64,000 bases of DNA from Paenarthrobacter sp. DKR-5 (GTDB lineage: Bacteria > Actinomycetota > Actinomycetes > Actinomycetales > Micrococcaceae). The stretch spans positions 310,001 through 374,000 of the forward strand of contig NZ_JAHBOI010000001.1 in assembly GCF_018531425.1 (NCBI RefSeq). The letters are read 5' to 3'. Under the pieces are notes generated by a model that saw only the letters and a program-made list of their open reading frames with translations, had not been told where the DNA came from and ran no database searches. This document shows positions 24,860 to 35,167 of the stretch, piece by piece. The translations under genes and the position numbers were made by a program. Within the stretch, counting starts at the first letter, position 1, and each line of letters opens with the position of its first letter.

Positions 24860-25450
24860 ATGAGCAACATTCCGGAACCAGCCCCGCAGCCGGGGCCCGA
24901 GGGCGGCTTCGAAGCGCCCACTCCCCCGCCTTCCTTCCGGCCCCCGGCCGCCGCCAGGCCCGAACCGGGACGGCCCGCGAACGGTTTCCGCTTCGGCAAG
25001 ACTGCCGGCGGCCGCCGGGGCGTCAACGACGTCATGCCCACCGGCATCACCGGAATGTTCCGCGCCTCCGCTCTTCCGACGGAACTGCGCATTTCCTACT
25101 ACATTTGGCTGCTCGGCGGCCTGCTCAGCGTCGTCGTCAGTGTCCTCTTCCTCGTCGGCACTCTGCTGGTCTCCACAGCCGTGGCCGAGGCCGGCCAGGG
25201 TGCCGCCTTGGCGCTGGCGTTTGGCAGCCTCGCCGCTTCCCTCGTGCTTGCGGCGGCGCAGATCCTCTTCGCCCTGCGGATGAAGGAAGGCTACGAGTGG
25301 GCCCGGATCGCGCTCACTGTCGTCGCCGCGCTCTCCCTCGTGGCCGCCGTCGTCTTCCAGAACTGGCTGAGCTTCCTGGTCTCAGCGGTGGCCACCGTGC
25401 TGATGTGGCTCCCGAATGCACAGGCCTGGTTCCGCCGCCCGTCTGTCTGA
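24860..25450 (+). CDS. Pro-rich N-terminus, four-helix membrane protein
   Basis: A 196-residue protein with a Pro/Gly-rich cytoplasmic N-terminus (about 1-55) followed by four predicted transmembrane helices (about 84-108, 114-135, 147-163, 166-182). The helix region resembles the next gene product in layout, including an EWARI step before the third helix (compare NWARI there). The two look like tandem paralogues. Function unknown. Confidence 0.7.
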   Translation: MSNIPEPAPQPGPEGGFEAPTPPPSFRPPAAARPEPGRPANGFRFGKTAGGRRGVNDVMPTGITGMFRASALPTELRISYYIWLLGGLLSVVVSVLFLVGTLLVSTAVAEAGQGAALALAFGSLAASLVLAAAQILFALRMKEGYEWARIALTVVAALSLVAAVVFQNWLSFLVSAVATVLMWLPNAQAWFRRPSV

Positions 25451-25564
25451 GGGCGCGCCTGCGGCTGCGGAAAACAGCCGCTGCCTTCCCGCCGCGCGCG
25501 GGCCTGCGCGATACGCTGTGCTTGACCTCAGGCAAGGCCCCGCAACAGAGACGAAGGACGAGCA

Positions 25565-26224
25565 ATGAGCACCCCTCCCGTTCCGCCGGAGAACGAGCCG
25601 CAGCCGCCGCAGTACGGACAGAACCCGCCCCAGTACGGCCAGCAGCAGCCCCCGGCCTATGGCCAGAACCCGCCGCAGTACGGCCAGCAGCAGCCTCCGG
25701 CCTACGGACAGGGACCGTCCCCCTACGGCCAGATTCCGCCATACGGCCAGCAGTACGGCGGCTACCAGGGCGCCCCGATGGGAACCGGCAAGCCGGTGGA
25801 ACGTCCGCGGGAGGTCAACATCGCCTTCTGGCTCATCGTCGCGGCCGGCGTCCTGAGCCTGATCGCCATTCCGTTCAACATCGCTGCGGCGCGCCAGCTA
25901 AGCCAGGGCCAGCTGACTACCAGCAACGGGCAGAGCATCAGCCCCGAGACCTTCAACTCGATGCTCACCGGCGTCGCCGTCGTCACGGCCATCATCATCG
26001 CCGCCCTGTATGCGCTGGTTGCCGTCTTCGTGCGCCGGGGAGCGAACTGGGCGCGGATCCTTGGAACCGTGTTCGCGGCCATCTCACTGCTGAGCCTCAT
26101 CGGTTCGACCCTGCCGACCGTACTGCAGGTGCTGCTTGGCGTTGCGGCCATCGTCCTGCTCTACTTGCGGCCCTCGAACGAGTTCTTTGCGGCCCGGAAG
26201 CGGGCCAAGCTGGGCCACTACTAG
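25565..26224 (+). CDS. PYGQ-repeat membrane protein
   Basis: A 219-residue protein with an N-terminal Pro/Gln/Tyr-rich tail (about 1-75, repeated PPQYGQ and PPAYGQ units) and four transmembrane helices (about 86-108, 135-158, 164-181, 186-202). Such low-complexity tails occur on actinobacterial membrane proteins and may recruit partners. The membrane part resembles the upstream gene. AAGGA lies before the ATG. Function unknown. Confidence 0.72.
   Translation: MSTPPVPPENEPQPPQYGQNPPQYGQQQPPAYGQNPPQYGQQQPPAYGQGPSPYGQIPPYGQQYGGYQGAPMGTGKPVERPREVNIAFWLIVAAGVLSLIAIPFNIAAARQLSQGQLTTSNGQSISPETFNSMLTGVAVVTAIIIAALYALVAVFVRRGANWARILGTVFAAISLLSLIGSTLPTVLQVLLGVAAIVLLYLRPSNEFFAARKRAKLGHY
25622..25711 (+). 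repeat. two 45-bp tandem coding repeats (NPPQYGQQQPPAYGQ)
   Basis: Codons 20-34 and 35-49 encode the same 15-residue unit, with a few synonymous differences between the DNA copies. Shorter PYGQ units follow. Confidence 0.85.
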
Positions 26225-26227
26225 CGG

Positions 26228-26962
26228 CTACGCTTCGGCAGCACGGGCGCGGGGCGCCGACCCCAGAGTCGGCTCCTGCGCCCGTTGTGCGTGGTAGGCC
26301 AGAATCTGCAGCTCGGTTGCCATGTCCACTTTTCGGAGGGTGACGTGCGGGGGCACCTGCAGCGTGACCGGCGCGAAGCTGAGAATGCTGCTGACCCCGA
26401 CCGCGACGACACGGTCGCACATTTCCTGCGCGACGGGTCCCGGCAGCGCCAGCACCACCATGTTGGCCCGCGTGCGCGCCAGCACCGTTTCCAGGTCCGA
26501 CACCGGGCTGACCCGCAGCCAGCCGACCTCGCTGCCGACCACCATCTGGTCCGCGTCGAAGATGGCCACCACGTCGAAACCCCGGGACTCGAAACCGGTG
26601 TAGCGGGCCAGCGCCTTGCCCAGGTTGCCGGCTCCGACAATTGCGACGCGCCAGTCATGGGTCAGGCCGAGGGCCGCGGCGATCTGCCGGCTGAGGTACT
26701 GGACGTCGTAGCCGACACCGCGGGTGCCGTAGGAGCCAAGGTAGGAGAGGTCTTTGCGGACAATCGAAGAACTCACTCCGGAACCTTCAGCCAGTTCTTC
26801 GGAGGACACCCGCTCCACCCCGTCGGTGAGCAGCCCGTTGAGCGCCCGCAGGTAGATCGTCAGGCGCGCGACGGAAGCGGGCGGGATCTGCCTTCCTCCA
26901 CCGTCCTGGCCGGCGGCCAGCGGGTGTGAGGAGGTGTCGGACGAGGTCAAGTCTTGCTCCAT
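26228..26962 (-). CDS. rex: redox-sensing transcriptional repressor Rex
   Basis: A 244-residue Rex. The winged-helix domain includes VARLTIYLRAL and VSSSIVRKDLSYLGSYGTRGVGY (about 30-103), followed by a Rossmann domain with VAIVGAGNLGKALARY and FDADQMVVG. It senses the NADH/NAD ratio and releases DNA when NADH is high, controlling respiration genes. The gene stands next to thiol and respiration-related genes; no confident Rex operator was found within the window. The start MEQDLTSSD begins a long variable N-terminus. Confidence 0.93.
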   Translation of the reverse strand: MEQDLTSSDTSSHPLAAGQDGGGRQIPPASVARLTIYLRALNGLLTDGVERVSSEELAEGSGVSSSIVRKDLSYLGSYGTRGVGYDVQYLSRQIAAALGLTHDWRVAIVGAGNLGKALARYTGFESRGFDVVAIFDADQMVVGSEVGWLRVSPVSDLETVLARTRANMVVLALPGPVAQEMCDRVVAVGVSSILSFAPVTLQVPPHVTLRKVDMATELQILAYHAQRAQEPTLGSAPRARAAEA

Positions 26963-27059
26963 CGCATCTTCGGTTATCGCTGCAACGAACCGCAGGCCCT
27001 GGTAAAGCGGGATCCTGCGGCTACTTCCACTGTAGGCCCACCCGGGAGGGCCACAAAGT

Positions 27060-27341
27060 TCAGCGGGCCAGCAGCCTGCGCAGCCGCGCCTCGTCGATCG
27101 TCCAGAAGTCGCGCTGGACGCCGTCGACCATCAGGACAGGTATTTCCTCCGCAAACCGCTCGGCCAGGTCGGGGCGGTCCGCAATGGAGAGCTCTTCCCA
27201 CGCCACTCCGAAATCCGCCGCCACACGGTCCAGCACGTCCCGGGCGGCGTCGCACAGGTGGCAGCCGGGCTTCGTGACAAGCTCAAGCTTCGGGCCTGCA
27301 CCGAGGGCAGGTTGCGCCGGCGGAACGTTGTTCTCATGCAT
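27060..27341 (-). CDS. glutaredoxin family protein
   Basis: A 93-residue thioredoxin-fold protein with a CHLC motif in LVTKPGCHLCDAARDVL (about 22-38) and a cis-Pro in EEIPVLMVDG. It belongs to the DUF836/glutaredoxin-2-like group common next to rex in Actinobacteria. The first of two overlapping ATGs (27341) gives the correct frame. A -10 TACATT lies six bases upstream and no ribosome site is seen, so it is probably leaderless. Confidence 0.85.
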   Translation of the reverse strand: MHENNVPPAQPALGAGPKLELVTKPGCHLCDAARDVLDRVAADFGVAWEELSIADRPDLAERFAEEIPVLMVDGVQRDFWTIDEARLRRLLAR

Positions 27342-27347
27342 GGAACC

Positions 27348-27353
27348 AATGTA
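27348..27353 (-). promoter_or_regulatory. -10 box of leaderless promoter (glutaredoxin gene)
   Basis: Read on the minus strand the hexamer is TACATT, six bases before the ATG at 27341. Confidence 0.5.
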
Positions 27354-27404
27354 GCCAAAGCCCTTCCGCGGCGGCGTCGTCGGGCATCCGGGCCGCGGAT
27401 TGAC

Positions 27405-27410
27405 TAGACT
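27405..27410 (+). promoter_or_regulatory. -10 box of leaderless promoter (HAD gene)
   Basis: TAGACT ends six bases before the ATG at 27417. Confidence 0.6.
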
Positions 27411-27416
27411 CGAGCC

Positions 27417-28229
27417 ATGCCCGAAGTGAACACGGTCGCTGCCGAGGAATCCTCGGCGACCCCCAAGCACCTCGGCGAAGCAGCCTTCTTCGACGTCGAC
27501 AACACGCTGATGCGCGGAGCCAGCCTCTTCCACGTCGCCCGCAAGATGTACCAGCGCAAGGCCTTCACACTGCGCGACGCCGCCGGCTTCGTCTGGAAGC
27601 AGCTGAAGTTCGTGACCCGGGGCGAGAACCTCAAGGACGTCCACTCGGTCCGCGACACCGCACTCGCCCTCGGCGCCGGCATCCTTGCGGAGGACATGGC
27701 GATCATGGGCGAGGAAGTCTACGACGAGATGATCGAGTCCAAGATCTGGCCGGGTGCCCGGGCGCTGGCGGAGCAGCACCTGCGCGTGGACCGGCAGGTC
27801 TGGCTGGTCACCGCCACCCCGATCGAGGTCGCCAGCGTGATCGCGGGCCGGCTTGGCCTGACCGGGGCGCTGGGCACCGTCGGCGAGGTGGAGGACGGCG
27901 CCTATACGGGACGGCTCGTGGGCGAGATCCTGCACGGGCCTGCGAAGGCAGTGGCAGTCAAGGAGTTGGCCCGGCGCGAGGGGCTGGACCTGGCCAAGTG
28001 CTGGGCTTACAGCGATTCCTACAACGACATTCCGCTGCTGACGCTCGTCGGCCACCCGGTGGCGATCAACCCGGACGCCAGGCTCCGCCGTCACGCGCGG
28101 GACCACAACTGGCCTGTTTACGACTTCCGCTCGGGCCGCCGCGCTGCGACGCTGGGGCTGCGCGCCGCGACCGGCGCCGGTGCCATCTACGGGCTGTGGC
28201 GCGGATTCTCGCGACTGCGCAGCCGCTGA
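27417..28229 (+). CDS. HAD-IB family hydrolase (SerB-like phosphatase)
   Basis: A 270-residue haloacid dehalogenase-type phosphatase. Motif I is FFDVDNTLM (about 23-31), motif II VTATPIEV, motif III K in KAVAVKELA, and motif IV WAYSDSYNDIPLL (about 199-211). The helical cap between motifs I and II fits subfamily IB, which includes phosphoserine phosphatases. The substrate is not established. The order glutaredoxin/HAD-IB/bS22/HTH near rex resembles the mycobacterial serB1 neighbourhood. Confidence 0.85.
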   Translation: MPEVNTVAAEESSATPKHLGEAAFFDVDNTLMRGASLFHVARKMYQRKAFTLRDAAGFVWKQLKFVTRGENLKDVHSVRDTALALGAGILAEDMAIMGEEVYDEMIESKIWPGARALAEQHLRVDRQVWLVTATPIEVASVIAGRLGLTGALGTVGEVEDGAYTGRLVGEILHGPAKAVAVKELARREGLDLAKCWAYSDSYNDIPLLTLVGHPVAINPDARLRRHARDHNWPVYDFRSGRRAATLGLRAATGAGAIYGLWRGFSRLRSR

Positions 28230-28269
28230 ACCTTCGTCCGTCCGCAGCCCGCACCACGCTTAAAAGCCG

Positions 28270-28301
28270 AGGGCCCGTCATCGCTGTCGATGACGGGCCC
28301 T
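28270..28301. terminator. bidirectional terminator between HAD and bS22 genes
   Basis: A perfect 14-bp stem (AGGGCCCGTCATCG, loop CTGT) lies between convergent genes. On the minus strand the stem is followed by a short CTTTT. Confidence 0.82.
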
Positions 28302-28331
28302 TCGCAGGCCGGCGCTCGTCCGGCCGCGTGG

Positions 28332-28430
28332 CTACTTCTTGTTGCGGCGCTGGTGGCGGGTCTTGCGAAGCAGCTTACGGTGCTTCTTCTTGGCCATACG
28401 CTTGCGGCGCTTCTTGATTACTGAACCCAC
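28332..28430 (-). CDS. small basic 30S ribosomal protein bS22 (AURKAIP1/COX24 domain)
   Basis: A 32-residue, extremely basic protein: MGSVIKKRRKRMAKKKHRKL followed by LRKTRHQRRNKK. This is the conserved actinobacterial bS22 (Rv0500B-type), found in mycobacterial 30S subunits. GTG start with GAGGA upstream. It is short enough that automated calling often misses it. The neighbouring HTH gene is conserved with it. Confidence 0.9.
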   Translation of the reverse strand: MGSVIKKRRKRMAKKKHRKLLRKTRHQRRNKK

Positions 28431-28577
28431 GAGTCCTCACAAACTACAGATAAACAACTGTCGGTTGACAGCCGTGAAACGATCAATAACGAAAAAGGAT
28501 CCTTTACAGGGTACCGCAGGTCATCCCTGCGAAGCCCACCGGCGCCATGGCGGCGGCTGGACCCGGAACGGCAACGC

Positions 28578-28790
28578 TCAGGCGCTGTCCGCTGTGCCGT
28601 CGACGACGGCGCCCCGCAGGTACTGTTCGACCGCCGACTCCGGCACCCGATACGACCGGCCGAACTGCACTGCCGGCAGGTCCCCTGCGTGCACCAGACG
28701 GTACACGGTCATTTTGGAAACACGCATCATCTCCGCTACTTCCGACACAGTCAGGAAGTGCACGTTGGAGAAGTTACTCTCCTCACCCAT
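28578..28790 (-). CDS. excisionase-family helix-turn-helix protein
   Basis: A 70-residue MerR/excisionase-like winged HTH: FLTVSEVAEMMRVSKMTVYR (about 12-31), then LVHAGDLPAVQFGRSYRVPESAVEQYL. The protein is conserved next to bS22 in Actinobacteria (Rv0500A-type) and is chromosomal, not phage-linked. It probably regulates transcription; its targets are unknown. GAGG lies before the ATG. The 147-bp gap to bS22 and the 156-bp gap upstream hold no further gene I can support. Confidence 0.82.
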   Translation of the reverse strand: MGEESNFSNVHFLTVSEVAEMMRVSKMTVYRLVHAGDLPAVQFGRSYRVPESAVEQYLRGAVVDGTADSA

Positions 28791-28946
28791 GTCCTCGACA
28801 TCCTCCGCTCGAACGAATACTCACGCAACAGCCGTGCCGATGCTGAGCCCATCGAACAAGCACGTGAAAGATACTCTAGGGGTAGAAGTGACCATTGTGA
28901 AAGTCCCCTATCATGCGGCTCTGCCGGCGGCCCTCACCGACACGGC

Positions 28947-30038
28947 TTACCGCTGTCTGCGTGCCCGGGTTCCCGCGGCCAGCGCCTCCAGGACCGCCGC
29001 CGTCGCCTCCCATCCCATGCAGGCGTCGGTGACGCTCTGACCATAGACCAGGGTGGTCCGATCCGACACGTCCAGCTTCTGGGCCCCTGCCGCCAGGAAG
29101 CTCTCCAGCATCACCCCGGCAATGGCTCCGGATCCGTCCTCAACCGCGAGCCGGTCCGCGAGTTCCCGCGCCACAACCGCCTGCCGTTCATGGCTCTTGC
29201 CGCTGTTCGCATGGCTGGCGTCGACCACCAGGCGCGGGTTCAGCCCTGCCGCGGCCAGCCGGGCGGAAGCATCGGCCACGTGCTGCGCTGAGTAGTTCGG
29301 ACCGCTGCTGCCGCCGCGGAGAATCAGGTGCGCATCCGGGTTGCCGGAGGTCTGCACGAGGCTGGCGCGGCCGTCGGCGTCGATGCCCAGGAAGGACTGG
29401 GCCGCAGCGGATGCGGCGCAGGCGTCCAGCGCGATCTGCAGGCCCCCGTCGGTGCCGTTCTTGAAGCCGATCGGCATGGACAAACCGGAGGCCAGTTGCC
29501 GGTGGATCTGGCTTTCCGTGGTCCGTGCCCCGATCGCGCCCCAGGAGACAAGGTCCGCGGTGTACTGGGGGCTGACGGGTTCCAGGAACTCCGTTGCGGC
29601 GGGCAGCCCGAGGGCCGCGACGTCGAGCAGGAAGCGCCGCGCCCGGCGCAGGCCGGTGGCCACGTCGTGCGAGCCGTCCAAGTGCGGGTCGTTGATCAGG
29701 CCCTTCCAGCCGACAGTGGTACGCGGCTTCTCGAAGTAGGTCCGCATCACCACCAGCAGGTCCTCGCGGTGCCGGTGCGCCTCGGCGGCGAGGCGGCGGG
29801 CGTAGTCCAGGCCCGCTTCGGGATCGTGGATGGAGCACGGCCCGACGACGACGAGCAGGCGGTCATCCACGCCGTCGAGCACGGCCCGCACCTCGTCGCG
29901 TCCGCGCCGCACGGTGGCGAGCGCGGCCTCGGCGGCCGGGAGCTCGGCCCGCAGCTCACTCGGTGCCGGCAGGGACCGGAAGCTGGTGACGCGCAGGTCG
30001 CCGGTGCTGGATTCTGAGGGGCTGGTGATCGTGTTCAT
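28947..30038 (-). CDS. aroF: 3-deoxy-7-phosphoheptulonate synthase, class I (AroF/G type)
   Basis: A 363-residue class I DAHP synthase that condenses phosphoenolpyruvate and erythrose 4-phosphate, the first step of aromatic amino acid synthesis. Signatures are VVVGPCSIHDPEAGLDYA (about 63-80), MRTYFEKPRTTVGWKGLIND (about 98-117), GARTTESQIHRQLASGLSMP and DASHANSGKSHERQ. The variable N-terminus may hold the feedback site. A short aromatic-rich leader peptide and a strong hairpin lie upstream, pointing to attenuation-type control. Confidence 0.93.
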   Translation of the reverse strand: MNTITSPSESSTGDLRVTSFRSLPAPSELRAELPAAEAALATVRRGRDEVRAVLDGVDDRLLVVVGPCSIHDPEAGLDYARRLAAEAHRHREDLLVVMRTYFEKPRTTVGWKGLINDPHLDGSHDVATGLRRARRFLLDVAALGLPAATEFLEPVSPQYTADLVSWGAIGARTTESQIHRQLASGLSMPIGFKNGTDGGLQIALDACAASAAAQSFLGIDADGRASLVQTSGNPDAHLILRGGSSGPNYSAQHVADASARLAAAGLNPRLVVDASHANSGKSHERQAVVARELADRLAVEDGSGAIAGVMLESFLAAGAQKLDVSDRTTLVYGQSVTDACMGWEATAAVLEALAAGTRARRQR

Positions 30039-30056
30039 GCGGTTCCGTCCGTGTAT

Positions 30057-30084
30057 GGCGGGACCGTTGGTCAGAACCCGCCGT
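30057..30084 (-). promoter_or_regulatory. second leader hairpin before aroF
   Basis: On the leftward transcript GGCGGG pairs with CCCGCC around an inner ACC/GGT-type stem, about 20 nt before the aroF start codon. It could affect ribosome access or form part of an alternating structure with the hairpin at 30096-30119. Confidence 0.4.
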
Positions 30085-30095
30085 GGAAATGGCGA

Positions 30096-30119
30096 AGGGC
30101 AGAGATTGCTCTCTGCCCT
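30096..30119 (-). promoter_or_regulatory. attenuator-type hairpin in the aroF leader
   Basis: A perfect 10-bp stem AGGGCAGAGA/TCTCTGCCCT with a four-base loop. It follows a segment (CAGAGCCA, 30121-30128) complementary to TGGCTCTG within the leader-peptide codons (30171-30178), so alternative pairings are possible. There is no T-run after the hairpin, so a classical intrinsic terminator is not shown. Confidence 0.6.
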
Positions 30120-30149
30120 GCTGGCTCTGAAGGTCGTTGATGATGCGCG

Positions 30150-30209
30150 TTATTTCGCTGCAGGCCCCTCCAGAGCCAACGCAAAATACGCATACCAACG
30201 CTTAGTCAT
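30150..30209 (-). CDS. aromatic-amino-acid leader peptide upstream of aroF
   Basis: A 19-residue open frame MTKRWYAYFALALEGPAAK with Trp-Tyr-Ala-Tyr-Phe at codons 5-9, lying 111 bp before the DAHP synthase gene and followed by paired RNA segments. The enrichment in all three end products of the pathway is the hallmark of a ribosome-stalling leader. A -10 TACCCT lies six bases before its ATG, so the message appears leaderless. A comparable leader (aroR) has been reported before aroF in Corynebacterium glutamicum, as I recall it. Confidence 0.75.
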   Translation of the reverse strand: MTKRWYAYFALALEGPAAK

Positions 30210-30215
30210 GGGTTC

Positions 30216-30221
30216 AGGGTA
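30216..30221 (-). promoter_or_regulatory. -10 box of the aroF leader promoter
   Basis: Read on the minus strand: TACCCT, six bases before the leader-peptide ATG. A possible -35 TTGGCC lies 18 bp further upstream (30240-30245). Confidence 0.55.
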
Positions 30222-30319
30222 GCCCCGGCCCGTCCCGCCGGCCAAATCCCCGCGGCGGCCGACCGGGCCACGCCCACACCGCCCACCCCAGCCCAACCCG
30301 ACAGCACCCAACCCGACAG

Positions 30320-30381
30320 CGCGAGCGGCCACTCGTGGCGACCTCCGCTGACGGGAGGTCGCCGCAAGTGGCCGCTGGCGC
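30320..30381. repeat. interspersed palindrome, copy D
   Basis: The arms GCGAGCGGCCACTCGTGGCG and its near complement flank a strong centre ACCTCC/GGAGGT. It lies between the ABC permease end and the aroF leader promoter. Together with the leader elements it accounts for most of the 350-bp stretch 30039-30389. Confidence 0.7.
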
Positions 30382-30389
30382 GGCGCGGC

Positions 30390-31352
30390 TCACTTGATAC
30401 CGGTGGTGGCGATCCCCTTGACGAGGAACTTCTGGCCGATCAGGAAGGCAATGAACACCGGCAGCAGGGACACGACGGACATGGCGAACATCGAACCCCA
30501 CGAGGTGGAGGACTGTGCATCGACGAAGGCCCGCAGGGCCACCGGGACGGTGAACATGTCCGGCGAGGTGAGGTAGATCAGCTGGCTGAAGAAGTCGTTC
30601 CAGGTCCAGATGAACGTGAAAATCGTCGTCGTCGCCAGCGCCGGCGTCATCAGCGGCAGGATGACCCGGAGGAAGATGCGCGGGTGGCCGGCGCCGTCGA
30701 TGCGGGCCGCTTCATCGAGCTCCTTGGGTACGCCGCGGATGAACTGGACCATCAGGAAGACGAAGAAGGCGTCCGTGGCCAGCAGCTTCGGCACGATCAG
30801 CGGCCAGAAGGTGTTCACCCAGCCGATCTGGGAGAACAGGATGTACTGCGGCACGATCACCACATGGAACGGCAGCATGATCGTCAGCAGCATGGCCCCG
30901 AAGAACCACTTCTTGCCCCAGAAGTTCAGCCGGGCGAAGGCGTACGCCGCCATCGAGCAGGAGACCAGGTTGCCGATGATGGTGCCCAGCACCACGATGG
31001 CGGAGTTGAGCAGGTAGTGGCCGAACGGGTTGGTCAGGGCGTTCCACCCGGCCGAGTAGTTGCCCGCCTCGAAGGTCTTCAGCAGGACGCCGGGTTCGCG
31101 GAAGATGACGTCGTTCGGCCGCAGCGAGGACGCCACCATCCACAGCAGCGGATAGATCATGACCAGCGCCGCGACGATGAGGATGGCGTGCTTGACGGCC
31201 GCCCGCACCTTGGCGGAGCGGGAGAAGGCCAGGGTGCCGCGCGATTCGCGTTTGCGCGTTGGACGCTTCGGTGCGCCCGCGGCCGGAGGGCGGCGGGCAG
31301 GTTCGACGGCGTCGGCCGCGGCGGCGGGCAGGGGCTCGATATTAGTCGTCAT
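30390..31352 (-). CDS. carbohydrate ABC transporter permease (MalG family)
   Basis: A 320-residue inner-membrane permease with six predicted helices and the EAA loop ELDEAARIDGAGHPRIFLRVILPL (about 207-230) that contacts the ATPase. The variable N-terminus (about 45 residues) is Pro/Arg-rich. It works with the adjacent MalF-type permease and the binding protein at 33851. The start MTTNIEPLPA overlaps the upstream gene by 11 bp. The import substrate is probably a sugar, sugar acid or oligosaccharide. Confidence 0.9.
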   Translation of the reverse strand: MTTNIEPLPAAAADAVEPARRPPAAGAPKRPTRKRESRGTLAFSRSAKVRAAVKHAILIVAALVMIYPLLWMVASSLRPNDVIFREPGVLLKTFEAGNYSAGWNALTNPFGHYLLNSAIVVLGTIIGNLVSCSMAAYAFARLNFWGKKWFFGAMLLTIMLPFHVVIVPQYILFSQIGWVNTFWPLIVPKLLATDAFFVFLMVQFIRGVPKELDEAARIDGAGHPRIFLRVILPLMTPALATTTIFTFIWTWNDFFSQLIYLTSPDMFTVPVALRAFVDAQSSTSWGSMFAMSVVSLLPVFIAFLIGQKFLVKGIATTGIK

Positions 31353-32262
31353 AGAACACCCAGAACTTTGCAGCGTAGAAGTTGATGGCGGTGAAGGCAC
31401 CGATGATTACGAGAAGGACCCAGGCCATGGCGGAGGCATACCCCATGTCGAATTCACCGAAGCCCTTTTGGTACAGGTACAGGGTGAAGAACATGGTCGA
31501 GTCGGAGGGCCCTCCGTTGCCGCCCGAGACGATGAAGGCCTGGGTGAACGACTGGAAGGCGCCGATGATCTGCAGCACGAGGTTGAAGAAGATGATCGGG
31601 CTCAGCAGCGGCAGTGTGATCTTGAAGAACTGCTTCGCTTTGCTGGCACCGTCGACGTCGGCCGCCTCGTAGTACATCGTTGGGATCTGGCGCAGTCCGG
31701 CCAGGAAGATGATCATCGGGGACCCGAAGGTCCACACATGCAGCAGGATGATGCTTCCCAGCGCCGTGCTCGGGTCCGAGATCCAGCCAGGTCCCTGGAT
31801 GCCGACCATGGCGAGCAGCTGGTTCACCAGGCCTGTGGTGCCGAACATCTGCTTCCACAGGATTGCCACGGCCACCGAGGTGCCCAGCAAGGACGGCAGG
31901 TAGAACACCGACCGGTAGAACGGCAGCCCGCGCAGGCCGCGGTCGAGCACCATCGCAATGAGCAGGGCCAGCGCCAGCTGCAGCGGGACACCGATCAGCA
32001 CGTAGGTGAAGGTCACCCGCAGTGAATTCAGCAGCCGCGCGTCATGGACCATGCGGACGAAGTTGTTGAGCCCGATCCAGTTCGGGTCCTGGATCAGGTT
32101 GTAGTCGGTGAAGGAAAGGTAGAGCGACATCAGCATCGGGCCGATGGTGATCGTGGCGAGCCCGATCAGCCACGGGAGGAGGAAGATGAACGCTGCCTTG
32201 TTGTCGCGTTTGCCGCCGGCCGCGCCTTTTTTGAGCTTCCCGAGCTCGCTGAGTGCGCTCAC
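31342..32262 (-). CDS. carbohydrate ABC transporter permease (MalF family)
   Basis: About 306 residues from the GTG at 32262 (VSALSELGKL), with six helices and the EAA loop EAADVDGASKAKQFFKITLPLL. This GTG overlaps the stop of a short upstream open frame as GTGA, which suggests translational coupling. An alternative in-frame GTG at 32361 would add 33 residues but has no ribosome site. No ATPase gene is present in the region, so a shared MsiK-type ATPase elsewhere is likely. Confidence 0.88.
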   Translation of the reverse strand: MSALSELGKLKKGAAGGKRDNKAAFIFLLPWLIGLATITIGPMLMSLYLSFTDYNLIQDPNWIGLNNFVRMVHDARLLNSLRVTFTYVLIGVPLQLALALLIAMVLDRGLRGLPFYRSVFYLPSLLGTSVAVAILWKQMFGTTGLVNQLLAMVGIQGPGWISDPSTALGSIILLHVWTFGSPMIIFLAGLRQIPTMYYEAADVDGASKAKQFFKITLPLLSPIIFFNLVLQIIGAFQSFTQAFIVSGGNGGPSDSTMFFTLYLYQKGFGEFDMGYASAMAWVLLVIIGAFTAINFYAAKFWVFYDD

Positions 32263-32336
32263 GTTACCGGGCCTTCGGACTGTCGGGGCCGAACCGTTTC
32301 CGGCTCGGGCGCGGAGACCGTTTCTTGATACAGCAC
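32259..32336 (-). CDS. short leader open frame coupled to the ABC permease
   Basis: A 25-codon frame starting GTG, four bases after a perfect GGAGGT, and ending in a TGA that overlaps the permease start (GTGA). The peptide begins MLYQETVSAPEPETV. It matches no family I know. The strong ribosome site and exact overlap suggest that it primes translation of the permease; it may equally be a small peptide of its own. Confidence 0.5.
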   Translation of the reverse strand: MLYQETVSAPEPETVRPRQSEGPVT

Positions 32337-32400
32337 GCAGACCTCCTTGGGTCGGTATCACCTTTGATACGGGCGGTTTGCTCAGTGCGAGCTATGCCGC

Positions 32401-32458
32401 AGTAAACGTTTTCTCGACGATAGCCGAGCTCTCCTACCCCGTCAAGAAAACGTTTTCT
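32401..32458. promoter_or_regulatory. divergent promoter region with two LacI operators
   Basis: Operator AGAAAACGTTTTCT (32445-32458, perfect palindrome) and AGTAAACGTTTTCT (32401-32414) have centres 44 bp apart. Between and over them lies a leftward promoter, TTGACG (32440-32445) N17 TATCGT (32417-32422), for the permease operon. A rightward -10 TATGCT (32477-32482) serves the esterase, its -35 falling inside the first operator. One repressor could thus close both directions. Confidence 0.75.
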
Positions 32459-32531
32459 ACTCGTCGGTAACCCGGCTATGCTCTGGGACAGCCCCGGAAC
32501 CCCGGCCCCAACCTTCCCCAGGAGGACTCAC

Positions 32532-33671
32532 ATGAATGGAACCCGCCGTCCGAGCGCCCTGGGCGGCTACGAGGACTGGCCGGCCTTCGTCCGGCAGTCA
32601 CGCCCGTTTGCGAGCGGCGAGGCCGGCGAGGGGGGCGAGGGGGCGGCCGGGCTCGCCGCGGCACTGGGACTGCCCGCGGTTGCCGGGCGCCCAGCTGCGA
32701 GGACGGACAGCGAGGTGGTGGAGGACGGCCTCCGCACCACCCAGCTCTCCTGGCAGCTCGGCTACGGGCCGAGGACGGCAGCCTTTTTTGTCCGGCCGGA
32801 GCGCCCCCAAGGCCCGCTGCCGGGAGTGCTGCTCATGCACTGCCACGGCGGCAACAAGTGGCTCGGCGCGGAGCGCCTGGTGGACCTCGGCGGCAGGTCC
32901 TCGCCCGAAGCGGTCTCCCTGCGGCGCGGACTCTACGGTGGCCGGGCATTTGCCTCCTCCCTCGCACGCAGGGGAATGGCGGTCCTCGCGCATGACACGT
33001 TCGCCTGGGGCAGCCGCCGGTTCAATCTCAGTCCGGCCCCCTGGCGGACCGCCGGTGTCCTCGAGGCGCAACATGCCCTGTGGCGAGAGAAGGGGGTGAG
33101 CCCGACGCCGTCGGCCACCTACAACATCCTTGCCGCCGACCATGAGCACACGGTCGCCAAGGCTGCAGGCCTGCTGGGCACCAGCTTCGCCGGCATGGTC
33201 GCGCATGACGACCTGGCCGCCCTCGCAGTGCTGGGCGGCCTGCCGGACGTGGATGCCGGCCGACTGGCCACGGCAGGGTTCTCGGGAGGCGGCGGACGGG
33301 CCATGATGGTTGCCGCCTTGTCGGGGCAGGTGCGCAGCCAGGTGGTCGCCTGCATGATGACCACCTTCGAGTCGTTGCTGCCCTCCTACCTGGATGCCCA
33401 CTCCTGGCTGATGCAGACCCCCGGCCTGTGGGCGTTCGCCGACTGGCCGCAGATCCCGTCCCGCGCCGCCGTACATCGCCAATCGATGCTGGTCCAGTTC
33501 GCCGCCGAGGACGCACTCTTCCCGCTGTCGGGCATGCGGCAGGCCGACAGCATCCTCGCCGCAACGGCCGGCCCGGGCTTCAGCTATGAATCGTCATGGA
33601 CTGACGGTGGACACGTCATGACGCTCCGAATGCAGGAGGACGCCGCAGATTTCCTCCTCCGGACGCTCTGA
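32532..33671 (+). CDS. alpha/beta hydrolase, esterase-like
   Basis: A 379-residue alpha/beta hydrolase of the large dienelactone hydrolase/acetyl-xylan-esterase-like group. The nucleophile elbow is AGFSGGGGRAM (about 253-263), the acid is probably in AEDALFP and the catalytic His in DGGHVMTLRM. The oxyanion region is LLMHCHGGNKW. There is no signal peptide, so it would act on an imported substrate, for example removing an ester group from a sugar. AGGAGG lies before the ATG. It is divergent from the transporter across shared operators. Confidence 0.78.
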   Translation: MNGTRRPSALGGYEDWPAFVRQSRPFASGEAGEGGEGAAGLAAALGLPAVAGRPAARTDSEVVEDGLRTTQLSWQLGYGPRTAAFFVRPERPQGPLPGVLLMHCHGGNKWLGAERLVDLGGRSSPEAVSLRRGLYGGRAFASSLARRGMAVLAHDTFAWGSRRFNLSPAPWRTAGVLEAQHALWREKGVSPTPSATYNILAADHEHTVAKAAGLLGTSFAGMVAHDDLAALAVLGGLPDVDAGRLATAGFSGGGGRAMMVAALSGQVRSQVVACMMTTFESLLPSYLDAHSWLMQTPGLWAFADWPQIPSRAAVHRQSMLVQFAAEDALFPLSGMRQADSILAATAGPGFSYESSWTDGGHVMTLRMQEDAADFLLRTL

Positions 33672-33760
33672 TTCCCGAGCCTTGGCTCCATTCCGGCTTC
33701 CGCCCGGAGCACCCGGAATCATGCCCCGCCCGGCGCACGGAAAACGCATTCCAAAAACCA

Positions 33761-33816
33761 TTGACGCCGAGAATGGGCCGCTGTAATAATCCTTGAAGCG
33801 CAAGAAAACGATTTCT
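33761..33816 (+). promoter_or_regulatory. promoter and LacI operator of the binding-protein gene
   Basis: TTGACG (33761-33766), a 17-bp spacer and TAATAA (33784-33789), followed by the operator AGAAAACGATTTCT at 33803-33816, just past the expected transcription start. This is a textbook arrangement for repression. Confidence 0.75.
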
Positions 33817-33850
33817 CGCTCTTCGTCCGCTCCTCAGAAAGAACAGGTCA

Positions 33851-35167
33851 ATGAAGACTTTCCTTCGCAGGTCCGCGCTTGCCAAGATGCTGGCCACAGC
33901 GGCAACCGTCGCCGTGCTCGCCACCGGCTGCGGCACCGGATCCTCTGCATCCTCCGACGGCAACGTGACACTCCGCTTCACCTGGTGGGGGAACGATCTG
34001 CGGAACAAGGAAACGCAGCAGGTGATCGACGCGTTCCAGGCCTCGCACCCCAACATCAAGATCCAGGCCGAACCGGGCGTCTGGTCCAGCTACTGGGACA
34101 AACTGGCTACCACCACCGCCGCCAACGACTCCCCCGACGTCATCCAGATGGACCAGGCCTACATTGCCGAGTACGGCGGCCGCGGGGCACTGATGGACCT
34201 GTCGAAGCAAAGTAACATCGACACCTCCAAGATCGACCAGGACGCGCTGAAGTCCGGCCAGTACAACGGCAAGCAGTTCGGCCTGAGCACCGGACAGAAC
34301 GCCTACGTGGTGCTGGCCAACACGAAGCTCTTCCAAGCGGCCGGCGTCCCCCTTCCCAACGACAAGACCTGGACCTGGGACGACTACCAGAAGATCGCCG
34401 CCCAGGTGGCCGCAGGAGCAAGCAAGAGCGGCAAGACCAACTACGGTTCCTCCTACGGCTTGACCGACTCGGACATGAACACCTGGGCGCGCCAGCAGGG
34501 TGAATCCCTTTACTCCGCGGACGGCAACCTCGGCCTTAAGGAAGGCACGGCGGCGAGCTTCTTCCAGCACATCAACGCCTTGCGCGACGCCAAGGCCGCG
34601 CCTCCTGCCGACCTCGCCTCCGAGGACATCAACGCTCCGATTGAACAGACTCTTTTCGGCACGGGGAAGACCGCCATGGCGTGGATGTGGACCAACCAGG
34701 TCAGTGCGATGTCCTCCGCCACCGGAAGCACCATCAAGATCCTGCGTGCGCCGAGCCAGAGCGGGCAGGCCAGCAAGAACGGCATGTTCTACAAGCCTTC
34801 CATGTTCTGGTCCGAATCCTCCCGGTCAAAGCACCCGAAGGAGGCCGCGGAGTTCATCAACTTCCTCGTAAACAGCACCGACGCCGCCAAGACCATCCTC
34901 ACCGAGCGAGGGTTCCCGACGAACACCGACATCCAGGCCGCAATCGAGCCGATGCTCAAGCCCACGGACAAGACGGCGGCCAGCTTCCTGAAGGACATCA
35001 AACCCGACATGCAGGCGCCGTCGGCGGTCCCGCCGAAGGGCTCCTCCGGCATGCAGAAACTCATCCAGCGGTACTCGACGGACGTGCTCTTCAACCGCAA
35101 GAGCCCGGCCGACGCCGCGAAGGGCTTCATGCAGGAGGCCCAGGGCATGATCGATTCAGCCAAGTAG
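33851..35167 (+). CDS. ABC transporter sugar-binding lipoprotein
   Basis: A 438-residue extracellular solute-binding protein of family 1 (maltose-binding type). The signal peptide ends in a lipobox around LATGCGTG (Cys near residue 26). LRFTWWGNDLRNKETQQVID opens the mature fold, and DVIQMDQAYIAEYGGRGALMDL is a hinge segment. It delivers the substrate to the permease pair encoded leftward at 30390-32262, though it is transcribed separately under a matching operator. Confidence 0.9.
   Translation: MKTFLRRSALAKMLATAATVAVLATGCGTGSSASSDGNVTLRFTWWGNDLRNKETQQVIDAFQASHPNIKIQAEPGVWSSYWDKLATTTAANDSPDVIQMDQAYIAEYGGRGALMDLSKQSNIDTSKIDQDALKSGQYNGKQFGLSTGQNAYVVLANTKLFQAAGVPLPNDKTWTWDDYQKIAAQVAAGASKSGKTNYGSSYGLTDSDMNTWARQQGESLYSADGNLGLKEGTAASFFQHINALRDAKAAPPADLASEDINAPIEQTLFGTGKTAMAWMWTNQVSAMSSATGSTIKILRAPSQSGQASKNGMFYKPSMFWSESSRSKHPKEAAEFINFLVNSTDAAKTILTERGFPTNTDIQAAIEPMLKPTDKTAASFLKDIKPDMQAPSAVPPKGSSGMQKLIQRYSTDVLFNRKSPADAAKGFMQEAQGMIDSAK

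Follow-up and report, generated by a model that had tools for sequence, protein, structure and literature searches.

A candidate leaderless aromatic leader-peptide element with alternative helices upstream of aroF in Paenarthrobacter and other Actinomycetia

RESULTS

The 64,000-nt stretch of Paenarthrobacter sp. DKR-5 DNA analyzed here (the window) carries a gene for a type I DAHP synthase (DAHPS), aroF, preceded on the same strand by a short open reading frame and a series of mutually complementary segments (Table 1). The frame, ATGACTAAGCGTTGGTATGCGTATTTT...AAATAA, comprises 19 codons and a TAA stop (30209..30150, minus strand) and ends 111 nt before the synthase gene. The original prediction, made from the sequence alone, described it as a leaderless leader peptide with the series Trp5-Tyr6-Ala7-Tyr8-Phe9 that starts six bases after a −10 box, and each of these elements is present, with the codons for Trp, Tyr, and Phe all in one peptide. 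Downstream of the leader stop follow a segment able to pair with the leader codons, a perfect 10-bp hairpin (hairpin 3), a G+C-rich hairpin, and the aroF start. These structures, too, had been predicted and are found as described: the second hairpin, GGCGGG/CCCGCC, can form 3′ of the first between 30082..30077 and 30062..30057, and in an RNAalifold consensus of 28 sequences including the window, segment 30133..30120 pairs with leader codons 10-15 over 14 columns. The prediction was also right in that the region has no T-run, as none follows the 10-bp hairpin, and a scan of the stretch found no terminator.

Table 1. Features of the aroF leader region, in the order of transcription (window coordinates)
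Feature	Position	Strand	Evidence
-10 box TACCCT, ends six bases before leader ATG	30216..30221	-	sequence; homologue spacing
Leader ORF MTKRWYAYFALALEGPAAK + stop	30150..30209	-	sequence; homologues
Strand 0: CGTTGGTATGCG, Arg-Trp-Tyr-Ala codons, possible partner of strand 2′	30189..30200	-	MFE; permutation
Sensor codons 5-9, TGG TAT GCG TAT TTT (Trp Tyr Ala Tyr Phe)	30183..30197	-	family loci; TAT/TTT bias
Strand 1: GTTGGCTCTGGAGG, codons 10-15, possible partner of strand 2	30167..30180	-	consensus fold; covariation
Strand 2′: GCGCATCATCAACG, just 3′ of stop, partner of strand 0	30135..30148	-	MFE; permutation
Strand 2: CCTTCAGAGCCAGC, partner of strand 1 or strand 4	30120..30133	-	consensus fold; MFE; covariation; permutation
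Hairpin 3: AGGGCAGAGA-GCAA-TCTCTGCCCT, 10 bp, perfect, terminator-like, no T-run	30096..30119	-	two-sided changes; permutation
Strand 4: GGCGGGTTCTGA, partner of strand 2 (GGTTCTGA) or strand 5 (GGCGGG)	30071..30082	-	2:4 in MFE; permutation
Strand 5: ACGGTCCCGCC, partner of strand 4 or ribosome-binding region	30057..30067	-	MFE; permutation
Strand 6: CACGGACGGAACCGC, aroF ribosome-binding region	30039..30053	-	sequence; paired in MFE
aroF, type I DAHP synthase, 363 aa	28947..30038	-	TIGR00034 match, 473.7 bits

The six-base gap between TACCCT and the ATG places the probable 5′ end of the transcript at the leader start codon, so that the mRNA would be leaderless. A TANNNT box lies 5 to 8 nt before the start codon in 152 of the 154 leaders that we collected, a count somewhat favored by a start picker that rewarded −10 matches, and the two misses (L195 and L198) may have wrongly chosen starts. 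The 174-nt transcript folds at −80.5 kcal/mol, with a z score of −5.9 against 200 dinucleotide shuffles, none of which was as low. The leader matched no Rfam 15 family: positions 25000-35000, searched with E values up to 1, gave five matches, none of them in 30036-30221, and ten leader loci gave no match at the gathering score. Between the end of an ABC permease gene (30390) and the leader promoter, we also observed a 28-nt inverted repeat (30319-30381; 89% complementary, 7-nt gap), whose 19-nt core has no other copy in the window with up to 3 mismatches and which could be a bidirectional terminator or a REP-like element.

Homologous leaders were found before type I DAHPS genes in many families of Actinomycetia. 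A DAHPS protein search gave 80 loci, of which an upstream motif filter retained 43; 42 of these are leaders in use here, one of them from a record labeled Sporosarcina, the remaining one (L035, Dehalococcoidia) is unrelated, and two further leaders (L026 and L044) were recognized later, beyond the motif filter. Within the family of the window, a degenerate pattern matched in 64 of 149 genomes, and among the 30 pattern loci that were fetched, 27 lie before DAHPS, all 27 reading CGTTGGTATGCGTATTT and all with a box at a start position that the pattern itself fixes; the other three have no DAHPS. Three matches that differ by synonymous letters, C-ending or other (G143, G025, and the second match of G105), were considered as variant leaders and dropped, there being no DAHPS nearby. 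A covariance model, R1, built from 20 sequences matched in 49 of 297 genomes of the order, in all 49 just upstream of type I DAHPS. Type I DAHPS (E ≤ 1e-60) occurs in 74 genomes of this sample, and the 25 without an R1 match comprise 19 of one family, f4, and six others, all six of which have an aromatic-cluster frame and a TANNNT box in a frame listing that covers frames and box only. At least one DAHPS copy is thus preceded by a leader in 55 of the 55 DAHPS genomes of the order sample outside f4. Of the 19 f4 genomes with type I DAHPS (e.g., G303, G290, and G388), 17 carry a pair of copies, which are often neighbors; inspection upstream of one DAHPS copy in each of three f4 genomes revealed no boxed leader, and one of the three (L239) has an aromatic-rich frame, MPWPEQLYLFPYNCSFP, without a box. 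Two Bifidobacterium loci (L073 and L075) likewise show no leader upstream of DAHPS, nor do the two of three DAHPS copies of genome G409 that lack an R1 match.

In the class sample, R1 matched 46 places in 45 of 394 genomes (E ≤ 0.05); type I DAHPS follows 33 of them and another gene nine, and we count the remaining four as chance (L193, L199, L200, and L201). In the phylum sample, six of 396 genomes matched at E ≤ 0.001, three in the order of the window and three marginal ones elsewhere that we also attribute to chance, at a distance where R1 is insensitive. The nine leaders before another gene (L182-L190) precede a product that in the two cases tested with Pfam (L183 and L189) consists of a partial DAHP_synth_1 domain and a type II chorismate mutase. 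All nine are without Trp (six with Phe only and three with Tyr and Phe), which would fit an enzyme leading to Phe and Tyr; Trp is also absent from 12 of the 14 Micromonospora-like leaders before DAHPS. Several of the nine have T-rich tails. Two records stand apart. L013 (NZ_JADHDY010000003.1), titled Sporosarcina beigongshangi, has an Arthrobacter-like aroF (72% identity) and an exact MTNRWYAYFSLALEGPASN leader, and the record may be mislabeled or contaminated. L035 carries at 1863-1934 a frame, MNTLNGFFYYFWFTDARHREAAS, before DAHPS, followed by a stem, AGCCCTCC/GGAGGGCT, with a T-tail, TTTATTTT (by eye), apparently an independent aromatic attenuator.

The aromatic cluster takes several forms, RWYAYF in the clade of the window and RWFTYA, RWYWRF, YWRF, RRYPYF, and SFAF elsewhere. 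The 154 leaders reduce to 137 that are distinct in their first 150 nt and, after four with a doubtful script-chosen aroF start were left out (L041, L110, L171, and L174), to 133; the first 14 residues of these contain Trp, Tyr, and Phe in 107, Tyr and Phe in 15, Phe alone in 6, and Trp and Tyr in 5. Loss of the frame or of its aromatic codons in close relatives, which had been set in advance as the observation that would speak against the leader, was not seen: frame, cluster, and leaderless spacing are all kept. The tail of the leader looks conserved as RNA rather than as peptide, because in L085/L120 it is frame-shifted to SLCSGGARV and in L136 it shifts after RWYAY, and yet box and cluster remain.

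The choice of codons within the cluster is strongly biased. In the 128 of 137 distinct leaders with a DAHPS match downstream, Tyr is TAT in 196 of 202 cases and Phe is TTT in 120 of 130, compared to 9 of 633 and 15 of 909, respectively, in the adjacent DAHPS genes; the 31 long ORFs of the window (TAT, 31 of 216; TTT, 31 of 439) show a milder bias in its genome than the DAHPS genes would lead one to expect. The clusters of 104 distinct leader ORFs contain 136 TAT and 5 TAC, and 94 TTT and 12 TTC, and of the only four Phe codons outside the cluster, a small number, three are TTC. For 56 representatives (below 0.86 similarity), A or T stands in the third position of 120 of 133 leader Tyr/Phe codons, of none of 18 Tyr/Phe codons in aroF codons 2-21, and of 10 of 615 in the DAHPS region. 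A general preference for A or T in third positions was rejected as the cause, with only 252 of 878 other leader codons ending so. Openness of the 5′ end was rejected as well, C-ending swaps in silico changing it by a mean of −0.14 kcal/mol (harder in 14 and easier in 18 of 56). Pairing of strands 0 and 2′ was rejected as the whole cause (median change 0, mean +0.67; weaker in 16 and stronger in 5 of 54) and, by these in silico swaps, may explain the bias at most in part. We infer selection for slow, wobble-read sensor codons.

The search for covarying stems in relatives, which the original prediction had proposed as a check, returned a covarying helix 1:2, and the other helices are co-adapted within species. 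In 52 aligned sequences (the 56 representatives without L039, L043, L055, and L130), 89.6% of the cells of helix 1:2 are paired and 74 are changed on both sides compared to 28.2 in shuffled alignments; none of 500 shuffles was as high in paired or in two-sided cells, and pairing falls to 34 to 55% when the partner is slid by one to three columns. For the helices with variable spacing, we compared in the 56 representatives the pairing of each segment with its own partner and with the partners of other species. The z scores over all species and within clades were −19.8 and −13.8 for hairpin 3 (placed by script, and misplaced in a few rows, e.g., L039 and L130), −11.7 and −6.8 for 1:2, −5.4 and −3.2 for 0:2′, −8.6 and −4.4 for 2:4, −6.6 and −4.2 for 4:5 (segments 4 and 5 share eight bases in the swap and permutation tests), and −8.5 and −6.8 for 5:6. 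Eight control segment pairs ranged from +2.1 to −3.0 over all species and from +2.2 to −2.1 within clades, and two of them, 0:6 (−3.0/−1.8) and 1:6 (−2.9/−2.1), are also above chance, if weaker than the proposed helices. Because the species are related, these permutation values, like the Wilcoxon values, are not true probabilities. In a swap test, 2:4 scored 0.432 with whole segments, near the negative controls, and 0.287 with core segments. The longest exact complement to the ribosome-binding site averages 5.15 compared to 4.60 in shuffled sequences, a weak signal (coding control, 4.93 compared to 4.72), with runs of six or more in 41 compared to 27 of 127. A local leader hairpin in the MFE structure of the window, 1a:1b, was rejected because its strands do not covary (75.8% paired, a level reached by 270 of 500 shuffles). 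The ribosome-binding site itself lies in an alternative helix, 5:6, that is co-adapted and is paired in the MFE structure of the window. Taken as read from sequence comparison, there appear to be five helices besides hairpin 3, several of them mutually exclusive, that end at the aroF ribosome-binding site and are co-adapted species by species.

In folding models, hairpin 3 does not switch. Over the 133 sequences, its mean probability is 0.94 to 0.96 with no ribosome, with a ribosome at the first or the last aromatic codon, and with one at the stop, and it falls below 0.5 in only one to three sequences per ribosome state. To look for a classical antiterminator, we truncated transcripts at hairpin 3 and folded them with the bases under the ribosome masked; no competitor appeared, and this candidate was dropped. 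At most four T occur in the best 8 nt after hairpin 3 in 67 of the 68 leaders of the clade of the window, and at least five T are reached in 11 of 16 leaders classed as other, 5 of 11 Myco-type, 2 of 24 RWYWRF, and 0 of 14 Micromonospora-like leaders. Two Corynebacterium leaders, L041 and L044, show T-tails after the stem (by eye). Given such T-rich tracts in some distant lineages, weak termination may occur at the 10-bp hairpin of the window.

We then modeled the cost of opening the aroF ribosome-binding site, cutting the RNA at the leading edge of the ribosome, taking means over stall positions, and using as controls 665 chimeras with foreign downstream regions. The site was cheaper to open with a stalled ribosome than with one near the stop in 102 of 133 sequences, by a mean of −1.51 kcal/mol compared to −0.50 in the chimeras, of which 62% were negative too (paired P = 6.8e-6, relatedness ignored), and by −3.7 in the window. 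By clade, with the chimeras in parentheses, the difference was −2.15 (−0.38) for RWYAYF, negative in 58 of 68, −1.43 (−0.57) for Myco-type, −0.83 (−0.54) for other, −0.78 (−0.48) for RWYWRF, and −0.50 (−0.98), no gain, for Micromonospora-like leaders. The comparison of stalled with no ribosome was no better than in chimeras (P = 0.28; 133 sequences). In the window, opening costs 9.0 kcal/mol with the ribosome at the stop and 10.3 without a ribosome. A modeled stall at Tyr8 or Phe9 opens the site through leader bases that pair with strand 5, not through 1:2 plus 4:5, and a stall at Trp5 or Tyr6 forms 1:2 while the binding region stays paired, at 8.1 and 7.8 kcal/mol, respectively.

DISCUSSION

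In this study, we examined a short frame upstream of aroF and conclude that it is, almost certainly, part of an aromatic leader-peptide control element. Short frames are common, and a spurious frame in a structured untranslated region would be one account; here, however, relatives share the frame, its aromatic codons, and the spacing of box and start, and the fold lies far below that of shuffles, so the leader is not a product of chance. Conservation, box spacing, and covariation refute the chance account, to which we assign a negligible probability.

For the switch, we lean towards an attenuator in which ribosomes stall on a leaderless frame and the initiation of aroF translation is the main target. 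The original prediction had proposed a mechanism other than classical termination, naming translation control and Rho access as examples, and translation control proved the better reading, the 10-bp hairpin being uncontested in the models and the aroF ribosome-binding site lying in a co-adapted alternative helix. When aromatic aminoacyl-tRNA runs short, the ribosome would halt on codons 5-9 and mask strand 0, leaving strand 1 wholly or partly available to strand 2; with 1:2 formed, strand 4 would pair with strand 5 and the binding site would open (ON). With charged tRNA plentiful, the ribosome would run over strand 1 to the stop, strand 2 would take strand 4, strand 5 would take strand 6, and aroF would remain uninitiated (OFF). 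Hairpin 3, predicted in both states, would be a pause site or a weak, unregulated terminator. That control lies mostly at the ribosome-binding site is, in our judgment, moderately probable, and if it does, the element is very probably ON in starvation. Support is good for the architecture, moderate for the direction, where the modeled effect is modest and differs between clades, and weak for the exact path. Translational attenuators of the erm type work on a similar principle, in that a stalled ribosome refolds the RNA and frees the ribosome-binding site. Their signal is an antibiotic, whereas that of the window would be uncharged aromatic tRNA.

The most serious alternative is transcription attenuation as in aroR of Corynebacterium glutamicum, in which hairpin 3 would terminate with a poor T-tract and stalling would block it by a route that pairing models do not show, e.g., coupling to RNA polymerase. 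Hairpin 3 does match in place the T-tailed stems of other lineages, and transcription attenuation is reported for AroR under Phe limitation in the available text of PMC11802643. Yet no strand competes with hairpin 3 in the models, T-tails are poor in the clade of the window (67 of 68) and in Micromonospora-like leaders (0 of 14 reach five), and the co-adaptation of 4:5 and 5:6 would be left unexplained; we consider this mechanism unlikely, if less so than those that follow. Under Rho-dependent control, aroF or the region ahead of it would go untranslated in the OFF state, and Rho would terminate transcription at that point. Such control would suit a stretch in which no intrinsic terminator was found, and Seliverstov et al. 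proposed it for actinobacterial cys leaders without terminators (PMC1262725, in the text available). A co-adapted helix over the binding site nevertheless points to initiation as the first target, with Rho at most acting downstream, and as the main mechanism we judge it improbable.

A different kind of alternative is a sequence-specific arrest peptide, in which a free aromatic amino acid would cause the nascent chain to halt its own ribosome, much as tryptophan does with nascent TnaC. The peptide RWYAYFxLALEGPA is indeed near invariant in many relatives of the window, but its tail seems to be kept as RNA, given the frame-shifted tails of L085/L120 and L136, and the cluster varies across the class (RWYWRF, RRYPYF, YWRF, and SFAF) while its aromatic character stays. 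We regard arrest by the peptide as very improbable.

Among known systems, the closest is the leader-peptide control of aroF in C. glutamicum, described as aroR by Neshat et al. in 2014 (PMC11802643, PMC4046766, and PMC7356990, as far as their available text goes). Like the window, aroR places an aromatic leader peptide directly before type I DAHPS; it is reported there to answer to Phe, not Tyr, through transcription attenuation (PMC11802643), whereas the window leader has Trp, Tyr, and Phe and a hairpin without a T-run. The two Corynebacterium leaders in our collection, which are not from C. glutamicum, encode Phe-Tyr-Phe, have a TANNNT box at a distance of 7 nt from the start, and, by eye, share strands 1 and 2 and hairpin 3 with the window. 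In the window, too, a leader ORF rich in aromatic codons immediately precedes type I DAHPS, and the element groups with the aroR leader, although its switch appears to differ. Of the features of a trp-type attenuator, the window has the leader ORF with regulatory codons and has neither the T-run terminator nor, in the models, a competing antiterminator.

Other leaders share single traits with the window. In Streptomyces lividans, leuL, trpL, ilvL, and others are leaderless, carry regulatory codons, and in several cases have no clear T-tailed terminator (PMC8079986); unlike the window, none of the eight leaders in the available text of that report precedes a DAHPS gene, the two with Trp lying before trpE and trpS. 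The mycobacterial Cys-rich uORFs also combine a leaderless start with regulatory codons, to judge from the available text (PMC4633059). The LEU element before actinobacterial leuA, in the part of PMC1262725 available, also couples a leader peptide to alternative structures that extend as far as the Shine-Dalgarno box, but in that element it is the Leu codons that pair with this box. The best partner of the aromatic codons in the window is a segment 3′ of the leader stop, and the box is reached by other strands. Direct pairing of the LEU type between codons and Shine-Dalgarno box is accordingly not what we see, 0:6 (−3.0/−1.8) being weaker than 0:2′ and the MFE structure pairing the codons with the post-stop segment. 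Finally, uORFC-13-1 before Acholeplasma aroF is a uORF with one or more Phe codons but, unlike the window leader, has a ribosome-binding site, adjoins an apparent intrinsic terminator, and occurs, according to the available text, in Acholeplasma and environmental sequences (PMC8632094). In our text searches of open-licence PMC papers, we found no description of the element outside Corynebacterium, of its switch at the ribosome-binding site, or of a rule favoring TAT and TTT.

For Tyr and for Phe there is a single tRNA species each, and because of this, selective charging of isoacceptors should not apply to the choice of TAT and TTT. Rare codons in attenuators are a subject of long standing, and for E. 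coli such charging is the account given in the available text of PMC1183508. The fullest form of our proposal would be one leaderless peptide that reads all three end products, in a class-wide element that switches aroF purely at initiation, with no regulated terminator, and that keeps TAT and TTT in G+C-rich genomes because slow wobble decoding by a single tRNA sharpens the sensing of starvation; as a whole, we hold this only tentatively and think it rather less probable than its failure in some part. With this analysis, a single described leader, aroR of C. glutamicum, becomes part of an RNA element that precedes type I DAHPS in many families of Actinomycetia and that has a new candidate output, the ribosome-binding site rather than a terminator. 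The element also offers a clean test of one peptide reporting three amino acids, and its preference for TAT and TTT bears quantitatively on codon choice in a case to which isoacceptor charging should not extend.
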